Positions 39,046 to 41,932 of a stretch of 64,000 nucleotides of DNA are shown here, one piece after another. Under the pieces are notes generated by a model, which saw nothing but the letters and a program-made list of their open reading frames with translations, did no database searches and was not told the DNA's origin. Position 1 is the stretch's first letter. Each line of letters starts with the position of its first letter. Both the position numbers and the translations under genes were made by a program. This DNA comes from Novosphingobium sp. CECT 9465 (GTDB taxonomy: Bacteria; Pseudomonadota; Alphaproteobacteria; Sphingomonadales; Sphingomonadaceae), in NCBI RefSeq assembly GCF_920987055.1, contig NZ_CAKLBX010000001.1:1350501-1414500 (forward strand), given 5' to 3'.

Positions 39046-40104
39046 ATGCGCAAGACAATCGCCGCCAGTGTTTCGCTCCTCGTCATCGCCGCTGCCACTC
39101 CGGCAGCGGCGATTGACCGGGCAGCGGTTACCCGAATCGATGCGGGCCACGTCGCCGTCGAATGGAGCGATGCCGATCCCGTCACCGTGCTGGCGGCGGC
39201 CGATCCTTCCGCCTCGCCCGAAACCGCCGAGATCATCGCGAAGGCGGATCGTTCCGGGCGGATCGTCGTGGTATCTCCGGCATCGCAGCGGCGCTACTTC
39301 GTGCTGCGCGATGGCGGCGATGGATCGGTCCGGCGCGTCGCGGAACGCGAACTGCCGCTTCAGCAAGGTTCGAACTTTCGCGACGTGGGTGGTTATATCG
39401 GCGCCGATGGCAAGCAGGTGGCGTGGGGACGGATTTTCCGATCCGGTGCCATGCCGCTGCTGACGGAAGCGGATTATGGCCTGCTGAGCACGCTCAAGAT
39501 CGCCACCATCGTCGATCTGAGATCAACGGACGAACGGATGATCGCGCCAACCATGCTGGATGATCGCACCGGAGCAATGTTTCTCAGCAACGATTACTCG
39601 CTCAAGCCGCTGATGGCCGAATTGGCCAAGAACGGCGGCGATTACATGTATGCCGGGTTGGGAGACATGCTCAAACCGCAACTCAAGGCGGTGTTCCGGT
39701 CTTTGATCAAGGCTGAAGGTCCGGTGATGTATCACTGCTCGGCGGGGCAGGACCGCACCGGAATTACCACGGCACTTGTCCTCAGCGCGCTTGGCGTGGA
39801 TCGCAAGACCATTCTTGAAGACTACCACTTGTCGACCGCGCTGCGCCGTCCGCAGTTCGAAATGCCGCCGCTTGATCCCGCTGATTGGCCGGGCAATCCG
39901 ATCGTCCCCTATTATGTCGCATCGGCAAAGAAACCGGGCGGCCCGAAAGCTGAGCCACTTTATGCTCCTACGGGCGTTTCCCATCTCGTCCAGCTGTTCG
40001 AGGTGATCGAGCGCGATTATGGCAGCGTGGAACGCTACCTCGACAAGGAACTGGGCGTCGGGCAGCCGGAAATCGCGCGCCTGCGTACCTTGTATCTCAA
40101 CTGA
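39046..40104 (+). CDS. Exported tyrosine-phosphatase-fold phosphatase
   Basis: 352 residues with a signal peptide ending TPAAA. After a beta-rich N-domain (about 25-105) comes FRDVGGY, the usual entry of the bacterial Y_phosphatase3 family. The P-loop is HCSAGQDRTG with nucleophile C231 and R237, and IVDLRSTDER upstream. Relatives dephosphorylate phosphotyrosine or phosphoinositides; being periplasmic, this one more likely releases phosphate from an organic substrate. Coupled to the TonB receptor. Repeat DNA begins 2 bases after its stop. Confidence 0.88.
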   Translation: MRKTIAASVSLLVIAAATPAAAIDRAAVTRIDAGHVAVEWSDADPVTVLAAADPSASPETAEIIAKADRSGRIVVVSPASQRRYFVLRDGGDGSVRRVAERELPLQQGSNFRDVGGYIGADGKQVAWGRIFRSGAMPLLTEADYGLLSTLKIATIVDLRSTDERMIAPTMLDDRTGAMFLSNDYSLKPLMAELAKNGGDYMYAGLGDMLKPQLKAVFRSLIKAEGPVMYHCSAGQDRTGITTALVLSALGVDRKTILEDYHLSTALRRPQFEMPPLDPADWPGNPIVPYYVASAKKPGGPKAEPLYAPTGVSHLVQLFEVIERDYGSVERYLDKELGVGQPEIARLRTLYLN

Positions 40105-40227
40105 TGGCGATTATGGCGTTTGTAAACACGGGCGCAGCACACCCTCCCTGCTGCGACTAATTTCGCCGTCGGCTCAATAAGTCTCGCTCCCCTCCCTTAA
40201 GGGAGCGACTATCTGACAGGTCAAGTG

Positions 40228-41157
40228 TCACTGACCAATTTCAGCTCTTGTTTCGCGTGCTTTTGCGTTGAGTCGGACGAGCAGTTTTCGGGCGAGGGCG
40301 ATGCGGACGACCATTTTGGGTTTACCTTGGTCGAGCAGGCGTTGGCGGAACTCTGCCATGGCCGGATCGAATTTTCGCACGATGTCGGCGACGAGGAAGA
40401 GGATCGAGCGGACAGAGCTTCTTCCACCACGGATAGATCGGGCACCGGATCGTTTGCCGCTGTCGTTCGCGATGGGCGCAAGGCCTGCAAGTTTGGCGAT
40501 GGCCTTGTTCGACAGGGTTCCGATTTCGGGCAGTTCGGCCAGCAGGGTGGCAACGGTGCGATCTGCCACGCCCTTGACCGAGCGCAGTGTGCGATCAAGC
40601 GCGGTCCAGACGGGATCGTGTTCGATCAGGCCTGCGATTTCACGGGCCAGCGCTTTGGCTTGGGTATTGAAGAAGGCGATGGCCTCTTTCAGGCTGGCAA
40701 GGGCAAGCGGATCGCGGGTGGAATGCAGGCGCTGCTTTTGCACCGTGATATCGCCTGTCACTTGCCGCAACCGGGCAGAAAGCGCGCTAAGCCTTTGTTG
40801 TTCGTCGCAAGGTGGCGGCGTTGGCCGTAGCCGCCGTGCCGCAGCAAAGCAGGCGATGACCTCTGCATCGATACGGTCGGTCTTCTCCAGCCGCCCCATC
40901 GCCTCGGCAAAATGCCGTACCGCTCTGGGATTGGTCAGGGCACAGGGCATGCCTGCGCGCCACAGCGCCAGGAATGCGTCCTGTTCGAGCCCGCCACTGG
41001 ATTCCATCACCACCAGTCCCGCGCCATGGCGACCGGCCCAGTCCGCCAACGCAGCAATTCCCGCCTCATCATTGGCGAACCGGCGATAGCCGCCGGCCTC
41101 GATCCAGCCATCAAGCCAGGCCTTGCTAACATCCACTCCACAAATCGTTTCGATCAC
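40228..41157 (-). CDS. IS110-family transposase (DEDD recombinase)
   Basis: 309 residues from a GTG start. The N-terminal RuvC-like DEDD domain has D9 in GVDVSK, E52 in VMESSGG, and D94/D97 in EKTDRIDAE. The C-terminal Tnp20 domain has VKGVADRTVATLLAELPEIG and LAGLAPIANDSGKRSG, with the conserved Ser, then RGGRSSVR. The frame is intact, so the element may be active. A longer 5' than 3' non-coding region places it in the IS110 rather than the IS1111 group, which predicts a bridge RNA upstream. Confidence 0.93.
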   Translation of the reverse strand: MIETICGVDVSKAWLDGWIEAGGYRRFANDEAGIAALADWAGRHGAGLVVMESSGGLEQDAFLALWRAGMPCALTNPRAVRHFAEAMGRLEKTDRIDAEVIACFAAARRLRPTPPPCDEQQRLSALSARLRQVTGDITVQKQRLHSTRDPLALASLKEAIAFFNTQAKALAREIAGLIEHDPVWTALDRTLRSVKGVADRTVATLLAELPEIGTLSNKAIAKLAGLAPIANDSGKRSGARSIRGGRSSVRSILFLVADIVRKFDPAMAEFRQRLLDQGKPKMVVRIALARKLLVRLNAKARETRAEIGQ

Positions 41158-41164
41158 GGTAACC

Positions 41165-41315
41165 TGCCTTGTCCGTACGGTTGAGACACCTGCCGACTAT
41201 TCGGTCGTGCGTGACAAGCGGTGCTGGTCCCAGGCTCCCTTACGGTTACTGCCTGAGTGGTGACGGGCGACAGCAGCGCAGCGCCGGGGTGGGTGGCCAC
41301 CCACCCCGGCGATCA
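41165..41315 (-). ncRNA. Candidate bridge RNA of the IS110 element
   Basis: Non-coding stretch 5' of the transposase. Read on the minus strand it shows, in order, three things. A perfect 15-bp palindrome (41311-41282) could be a 5' stem-loop. A hairpin CAGGC..GCCTG (41255-41231) has a 15-base loop; TAAGGGAG (41242-41235), spanning that loop and its 3' arm, matches the target flank at 40192-40199. Then ATAGTCG (41200-41194) matches the element end at 40206-40212. This is the target-loop, donor-loop, recombinase order described for IS621. Inference from short matches; ends approximate. Confidence 0.45.
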
Positions 41316-41430
41316 GCCGATTACATCGCAATCAACCAACAACGTCCAGATACAAGGGGGTGGGGGTGGGTTTACGACCGCTGTGTTTACAAAAGATATA
41401 GTCGCCTAACTTGATGGGCGCGGTGCATGA

Positions 41431-41706
41431 TCACGCTGTCGCGTCGATGGCGTGATTGCCTGCCTCGGCGTCCAATATCGTCTTGATCAGCACATCCGCC
41501 GCACCTGCTTCATCGGCAAGCTGGCGCAGTGTCTTGGCAGTGTCTTTCAAAAGACCGTCTCCGATGGGCCGTTCGCCGTTGATGAACCGGCGGATGGCTC
41601 TTTCGTCTATGCCGAGGCGGCGGGCAGCAGAAGTGGTGCCACCAAACAATTGCACACAATAGGCAAAATGTTCACGCCGATCGTGGATTGAATTTTCCGC
41701 TGCCAT
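41431..41706 (-). CDS. Small helix-turn-helix protein
   Basis: 91 residues from ATG 41706, behind GAGGG; an ATG at 41730 is in frame. The HTH region is LFGGTTSAARRLGIDERAIRRFINGERPI, followed by a helical tail with LKDTAKTLRQLADEAG. Similar short Cro/C1-like or AlpA-like proteins are common on integrated elements. It sits between the IS110 composite and a tRNA gene, so it may be a remnant of an integrated island. Target unknown. Confidence 0.65.
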   Translation of the reverse strand: MAAENSIHDRREHFAYCVQLFGGTTSAARRLGIDERAIRRFINGERPIGDGLLKDTAKTLRQLADEAGAADVLIKTILDAEAGNHAIDATA

Positions 41707-41795
41707 GTTGCCCTCGGTGGTCAGTATCATTGTCAGGTCAGCGATCCCGCGAGCGAGACCGCGGCGCGCTGGAAAGCAATTCGTGAATTTGCAAG

Positions 41796-41872
41796 TGGCG
41801 CGCCCGGCAGGACTCGAACCTGCTGCCTCAAGATTAGAAGTCTCGCGCTCTATCCAGATGAGCTACGGGCGC
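41796..41872 (-). tRNA. tRNA-Arg (anticodon UCU)
   Basis: 77 bases including an encoded CCA. The acceptor stem is GCGCCCG/CGGGCGC with G discriminator. D-arm GCTC..GAGC, anticodon loop CTTCTAA with TCT at 41838-41836, and T-arm CAGGTTCGAGTCCTG are all present. Decodes AGA/AGG, rare codons in this genome, and such tRNAs often serve as integration sites. No duplicated tRNA end is visible within the window. Confidence 0.97.
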
Positions 41873-41932
41873 GCGCTGCCTGCCCCATAAGCTGCTTTTC
41901 GCCGTGTGCAAACCGGGTTAGCAAAGGCACCC

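Follow-up and report, generated by a model that had tools for sequence, protein, structure and literature searches.

A putative bridge-RNA-guided insertion sequence of the IS110 group in a dispersed palindromic repeat of Novosphingobium sp. CECT 9465, with one copy altered in its target loop

Analysis of the window (the whole stretch of 64,000 nucleotides from Novosphingobium sp. CECT 9465) revealed an IS110-group insertion sequence lying inside a MITE-like dispersed repeat (Table 1). The preliminary description of this DNA had assigned the element to 40106-41406, an interval that does cover the repeat together with the insertion; the element alone occupies 40204-41356. Its termini were defined by comparison of 12 differently flanked copies from the same genome and an empty repeat. 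The element is 1,151 bp long with one CT core counted (1,153 bp with both), and its left end (CTTGTATCTG) and right end (GATAGTCGCT) are identical in all 12 copies. Each copy has CT at both ends, the core dinucleotide being common to the target and the element ends. A second ATAGTCG motif, near 41400, was rejected as an element end, since it sits in the repeat flank.

The recombinase gene is preceded by 197 nt and followed by 22 nt of the element (cores not counted), and the only inverted repeat is a short sub-terminal one (ATA...TAT, around the donor core). The features that define the IS110 group (a long left end with an upstream RNA, a short right end and a short inverted repeat) are given in PMC11208160. 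Judged by its long left end with the RNA 5' of the gene, the element belongs to the IS110 group as against IS1111.

Table 1. Positions of the identified features (window coordinates, except for the three matches located elsewhere in the genome)
Feature	Position	Strand	Remarks
IS110-group element	40204..41356	-	ends set by 12 differently flanked copies of the same genome and an empty repeat
CT core, right end	40204..40205	-	from comparison of copies
CT core, left end	41355..41356	-	from comparison of copies
DEDD recombinase gene (309 aa, GTG start)	40228..41157	-	PF01548, PF02371, NF033542
Bridge RNA 5' hairpin (perfect 30-nt palindrome, 15-bp arms)	41282..41311	-	13/15 pairs covary
Target-loop stem, 5' strand	41271..41279	-	private G-to-C change at 41276 breaks the stem here
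Target-loop stem, 3' strand	41218..41226	-	
Left target guide, TCACCA + core CT (TCACCACT)	41256..41263	-	private C-to-A change at 41258
Right target guide, TAAGGGAG	41235..41242	-	7 of 8 bases used; covaries with right flank +1 to +5
Left donor guide, ATAGTCG	41194..41200	-	equals the last 7 bases before the core at the right end; putative role, by analogy with IS621
Right donor guide, ACAAG	41168..41172	-	complementary to CTTGT of the left end; putative role, by analogy with IS621
Left donor half, ATAGTCG (right end)	40206..40212	-	
Right donor half, TGTATCT (left end)	41348..41354	-	
-35 half, TTGACC	40219..40224	-	promoter-like junction sequence, 16/16 elements
-10 half, TATCTG	41347..41352	-	17-bp spacing in the circle
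Core and right target, CT-CCCTT	40199..40205	-	pairs with the right guide
Left target, CCC	41357..41359	-	adjoins the core
MITE-like repeat, one part	40106..40205	.	88% identity to empty copy G000:C1:580545-580705
MITE-like repeat, other part	41355..41400	.	87% identity to the empty copy
L013-L015	G000:C1:900905-901321, C1:1272257-1272691, C3:132785-133084		IS110-type transposase matches

A family search of the genome yielded 15 IS110-type matches, 12 of which represent this element (the window copy and 11 sisters). The other three (L013-L015) are transposase matches outside the 12-copy family. Copies L007 and L012 (main contig and contig C2, 193 kb) have very similar flanks, which suggests that a segment has been duplicated or that a second repeat exists. 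The nearest named relative, from Sphingobium terrigena, shows 70% identity. Among plasmids, one record encoded a protein relative at E <= 1e-60 and six displayed some DNA similarity, while among viral contigs 22 stretches fitted a pattern and none of them encoded a relative. A search of Rfam with 39900-41900 (E up to 1) gave no match to the element; it recorded a tRNA (41799-41872) and, on the other strand, a 'Plastid-ycf2' match below the gathering score, both unrelated to the element. In the IS110, bridge RNA and seekRNA literature, judged by titles and the opening parts of abstracts, no paper on this element was found among the matches listed.

The DEDD transposase had been described as intact, and the open reading frame indeed carries both IS110 domains, PF01548 (E 1.5e-22) and PF02371 (E 4e-15), each above the cut-off, and matches NF033542 ('IS110 family RNA-guided transposase') with 183.3 bits against a cut-off of 140. 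The closest solved structure by sequence is that of the ISCro4 transposase (9t56; E 2.2e-23). The alignment with IS621 (8wt6; E 2.8e-21, 79.8 bits) spans residues 7-293 of the recombinase, and the D, E and TD..D residues, as well as the serine of GGRSSVRS, are aligned with identical letters in both structures. We take these residues to be the catalytic ones. By its sequence, the protein is thus a member of the IS110 family, with a RuvC-like DEDD N-terminal domain and a serine C-terminal domain.

Upstream of the gene, the palindrome, the target loop and the donor loop follow one another in this order. The perfect 15-bp palindrome noticed earlier was found at 41282-41311, and so was the reported succession of TAAGGGAG (41235-41242) and ATAGTCG (41194-41200) before the gene; the left target guide (41256-41263) and the right donor guide ACAAG (41168-41172) had been overlooked. 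A check of the RNA by a covariance model, as proposed in the preliminary description, was run as an analysis of covariation in an alignment of 13 of the 17 upstream regions (L078, L083, L089 and L092, which are close to included rows, were omitted). The consensus structure had 96.5% of its cells paired, with changes on both sides in 19 of 42 pairs among the 13 sequences. In none of 500 shuffles was a value as high obtained on any of the five measures, and sliding the alignment by 1-3 columns left at most 43.2% of the cells paired. Changes on both sides were present in 13 of the 15 consensus pairs of the palindrome helix and in 5 of the 6 pairs of the target-loop stem. These compensatory changes support, at the level of sequence comparison, the 5' hairpin and the target-loop stem as helices of the putative RNA. 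The pairs of the donor loop are mostly invariant, and we infer a donor stem-loop from this conservation. In the upstream region of L083 the left end of the element is duplicated next to an assembly N, which is probably an artefact of the assembly.

The match of ATAGTCG with the element end at 40206-40212, reported previously, was confirmed, as the motif equals the right end adjacent to the core. After the left donor guide, this lineage has GC in place of the core CT; there is little donor variation, and the second base of the guide differs from the element end in several relatives. The ACAAG motif is invariant in all 13 aligned sequences. When the ends were joined into a virtual circle, the junction contained TTGAC(A/C), 17 bases and TATCT(G/A) in each of the 16 elements examined, two of which are sister copies from the same genome. 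Such promoter-like junctions fit the circle-junction promoters of ISEc11 and ISEc21 (PMC11187229) and the -35 box of IS621, which is lost once the joined ends are shortened (PMC11208160). The promoter is split in the inserted element; expression would thus depend on the circle or on the neighbourhood.

The repeat that received the element is known in an empty form at another locus (C1:580545-580705), where the sequence is continuous at the insertion point; both window flanks match it, and the earlier view of the target as a dispersed repeat is therefore correct. When the empty copy was used as the query, with 40 of 43 candidates scored, at least 29 places matched; some of these are halves split by the element. 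The host repeat (40106-40205 and 41355-41406) is MITE-like, with inverted ends GGCGATTAT..TTTGTAAAC / GTTTACAAA..ATAGTCGCC. Several fetched copies have another palindromic centre (e.g. CCCGCAAGCGGG), for which a full guide match is not expected. BLAST of the joined flanks against the repeat reference gave a match for 6 of the 12 copies (L001, L002, L005, L008, L009 and L010).

The target centre, CTCCCTTAAGGGAG, is itself a palindrome, so that the letters of TAAGGGAG appear on both of its arms. The preliminary description had recognized TAAGGGAG in the loop and paired it with the flank at 40192-40199. The motif is present; the partner was wrong, because comparison of the 12 copies locates the crossover in the CT core 40204-40205, which places the pairing at 40199-40205. 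The register at 40192-40199 was accordingly rejected. The far arm of the palindrome (40189-40198, plus strand) constitutes a perfect unoccupied target, CCCCTCCCTT, directly beside the element. A palindromic target may offer two landing sites that overlap and have opposite orientations, and a second copy could land at 40189-40198, in the opposite direction.

In the genome, 5 unoccupied places carry the perfect 10-mer CCCCTCCCTT; of these, two overlap on a single palindrome and another is the far arm in the window. An enrichment of the genome in this 10-mer was rejected, as the reversed control also gave 5 places. The exact 10-mer is occupied by six copies (L001, L002, L003, L005, L008 and L009), i.e. 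6 of the 11 perfect sites are filled. The remaining six deviate on the right side, with mismatches to the right guide at +4, +5 or both positions in L004, L006, L007, L011 and L012, and with a wobble at +2 in L010. The preliminary description had stated that loops identical among copies with unrelated targets would speak against guidance. Among the 12 places, occupied by the window copy and 11 copies with identical guides, six lie in the repeat and six show no match to it; CCC-CT-C is shared by all 12, CCC-CT-CC by 11 and the full CCC-CT-CCCTT by 6.

The comparison of guides with flanks, also proposed at the outset, was extended to 36 insertion sites representing 12 guide types: the 12 own sites and 24 in relatives (12 from named records, 7 in genome G491, 1 in G546 and 4 in G994). 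The named records belong to Sphingobium, Mesorhizobium, Rhizobium, Bradyrhizobium and an unassigned alphaproteobacterial MAG, and 12 of their 18 loci were used, L086, L087, L088, L090, L091 and L093 being without a guide end. Three loci with readable target loops were omitted: L047 (no ends) and L048 (no right end), both read by pattern, and L121 (left end not found), read by eye. L110, truncated upstream, was not counted, and duplicates were dropped (L094-L107 repeat named-record loci; L111, L113, L115, L117 and L119 repeat own copies). Loci L049-L075 lay outside the guide analysis, with at most 41% identity over the gene, or as fragments (L060 is an 88%-identical fragment). The more distant IS110 copies include multicopy sets in genomes G047 and G084. 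L076, missed by the guide pattern, and L122-L125, which it did not yield, were added with hand-set anchors.

Watson-Crick matches between guide and flank were observed in 35, 33 and 35 of the 36 sites at left positions -3 to -1, and in 35, 34, 35, 29 and 30 at right positions +1 to +5. The outer left positions (-6 to -4) matched in 4, 20 and 18 sites. Position +6 matched in 2 of 36, and an eighth matched base of the guide was therefore rejected as coincidental; the right guide in use comprises the core and five bases. The left mismatches comprise L080 at -3, L077 and L108 at -2, and L092, whose guide mismatches at -2 a target that is matched by its relatives. L080 and L081, sisters in the protein tree, share the same right target with guides one base apart, with a G-U wobble in L080. 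Another near-copy of the site's own target 10-mer (at most one mismatch) was present within 300 bp at 21 of the 36 sites; the mean was 0.69 near-copies per site, against 0.07 for shuffled flanks, which indicates that many of the targets lie in palindromic or repeated DNA. The four copies L122-L125 (G994), from a relative at 43% identity, are located in another repeat, whose other arm holds a near-copy of the same target.

The one left mismatch at -1 belongs to the window copy. Only two positions, both in the target loop, are private to this copy and set it apart from all 11 sisters: element position 81 (window 41276), where G to C breaks a pair of the target-loop stem, and element position 99 (window 41258), where C to A alters the left guide at -1. 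The target base at -1 is C in 36 of 36 sites, and the guide has C at -1 in the other 35 rows. Since the sister states complete the stem and agree with these rows, they were taken as ancestral. The locus had been presented as a self-readable example of guide, donor and target, which it is not, as the private C-to-A change mismatches the copy's own target. Two random changes would both fall within this stretch in about 0.3% of cases (62 of 1,151, squared), a figure to be read as that of a pattern noticed post hoc.

Folding predictions gave -91.0 kcal/mol (z -2.22) for the sister RNA, whose fold shows the expected stem-loops, and -83.5 kcal/mol (z -1.20) for the window RNA, in whose minimum-energy fold the target stem-loop is absent. 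For the stem pairs, the predicted probability is 0.83-1.0 in the sisters. The guide change by itself gives 0.81-1.0, and the stem change by itself gives 0.76-0.91 for the pairs other than the broken one; the two together lower the probability to 0.26-0.32. As far as such predictions go, the window copy has most likely drifted since its insertion and been weakened. The two private target-loop changes and the fall in predicted folding energy make it fairly probable that the copy is decaying, with a weak or non-functional bridge RNA, and is kept as a passenger, although its recombinase gene is intact, folding predictions ignore the bound protein, and the sisters could supply the RNA in trans. That the C-to-A change is instead a natural re-aiming, giving a working bridge RNA that would prefer CCA-CT-CCCTT, appears rather improbable. 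The change is private to one of 12 copies and adjoins the core, the genome contains four unoccupied CCACTCCCTT sites, and the stem is predicted to survive the guide change alone; against this, the second private change breaks the stem, the two changes together bringing the predicted pair probability down to about 0.3 (0.83-1.0 in the sisters), and no CCA-CT site is occupied by any of the 12 copies.

The dependence of the match on the guide was assessed in 20,000 permutations, in which the 12 guide types were reassigned among lineages; the permuted lineages are related, so that the resulting numbers overstate independence. On the right (+1 to +5) the mean match was 4.71 of 5, against a null mean of 2.91 and a null maximum of 4.25, and was reached in none of the permutations; the flank thus covaries with the loop in the homologous copies. 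An earlier right-side test with 32 sites gave 1 of 720 permutations, the identity alone. The left side was weaker: positions -3 to -1 gave 2.71 of 3 (null 2.34; reached in 184 of 20,000) and positions -6 to -4 gave 1.24 of 3 (null 0.82; reached in 409 of 20,000). Single left positions displayed a weak signal or none, -1 being reached by every permutation, because there is little variation among the left guides. The match in register was 9.39 of 10 positions (3 + CT + 5, with the constant CT included), and no more than 5.17 when the register was slid by 1-3 bases. Five of the 15 inner branches of the protein tree are open forks, with a long-branch warning, and no count of guide switches was drawn from it.

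These comparisons show, from sequence, guides complementary to the bottom and top strands of the target and overlapping at the core, strongly on the right and more weakly on the left. It is very improbable that the protein alone picks C-rich palindromes, with the loop match a by-product of shared C-rich composition: every target is rich in C and has a CT core, the left guide shows little variation and no excess over permutation at -1, and in L080/L081 and in L092 versus its sisters the guides differ while the target is unchanged, but the right guide tracks the flank across seven distinct five-mers among the 36 sites (0/20,000 permutations), a slide by one base leaves about 5 of the 10 positions matched instead of 9.39, and the match ends at +6.

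We therefore regard the element as a bridge-RNA-guided insertion sequence of the IS110 group, with a probability of about 0.95; the bridge-RNA reading first suggested by the IS621-like order and location is supported by the guide/flank covariation and by the RNA helices. Excision at the CT cores would release the element as a circle, as in its family, and the joined ends, to judge from their sequence, would rebuild a sigma-70-like promoter for the bridge RNA and the recombinase. The RNA would consist of the 5' hairpin and the target loop (helices supported by covariation) and the donor loop (supported by conservation). The target loop would select CCC-CT-CCCTT through a left guide of mainly three bases plus the core and a right guide of the core plus five, as the covariation with the flanks indicates (with a strong signal on the right and a weaker one on the left), and the donor loop may pair with the element's own ends, ATAGTCG-CT-TGT, which it matches in sequence. 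Recombination at CT would then place the circle between the two target halves, at the point defined by the 12 copies and the empty repeat. The guide would address the palindromic centre of some copies of the MITE-like repeat and similar sites elsewhere, and the window copy appears to have gained its two target-loop changes later, which probably weakened it or altered its aim.

The element is a well-supported instance of the known IS110 bridge-RNA type. The same architecture, with guide/target covariation over 5,511 pairs, is described in PMC11208160. Like IS621 of E. coli, it encodes a DEDD recombinase with PF01548 and PF02371, carries the putative RNA in its left end with a 5' hairpin followed by the target loop and the donor loop, and has a CT core; it also shares with IS621 the short ATA/TAT inverted repeat around the donor, a promoter (predicted here) needing both ends, and insertion in dispersed palindromic repeats, REP in the case of IS621 (PMC11208160). 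The two differ in that the proteins are distant (79.8 bits to 8wt6) and in that the published analysis of IS621-type loops used a nine-base left and a four-base right guide, core included, against about 3 + CT + 5 here; longer right guides occur in some orthologues (PMC11208160). Similarity to the ISCro4 transposase, the closest solved structure, was established at the protein level. The putative upstream RNA is shared with ISEc21, and the predicted circle-junction promoter and natural re-aiming between relatives with ISEc21 and the ISEc11/ISXne4 seekRNAs, whereas in IS1111-group elements the RNA lies downstream (PMC11187229). The re-aimings reported for seekRNAs concern proteins 72% identical (PMC11187229), and the change described here affects one of 12 near-identical copies within one genome. 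Insertion sequences in dispersed palindromic repeats, including those of Sinorhizobium meliloti, were described by Tobes and Pareja in 2006 (PMC1525189), in work published before such guide RNAs were known; the preference of such elements for REP-like repeats is established (PMC1525189, PMC11208160).

What the present analysis adds is (i) the multi-copy natural experiment, (ii) the corrected register, (iii) the right-weighted use of the guide, and (iv) the drifted window copy. The 12 copies of one genome and their relatives, with seven right-guide five-mers, form a compact data set in which guide and target change together, and they indicate that elements of this subfamily use a guide of about 3 + core + 5. 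The window RNA and the sister RNA are a natural pair, two bases apart, for the study of how guide drift begins. One may speculate that the subfamily shifts between palindromic repeat families through point mutations acquired by the guide after insertion, and that the window copy has been caught in the act; we consider this unlikely. If it is true, guide drift of the kind seen in one of the 12 copies (CCC to CCA) may supply the variation from which a new target specificity arises.
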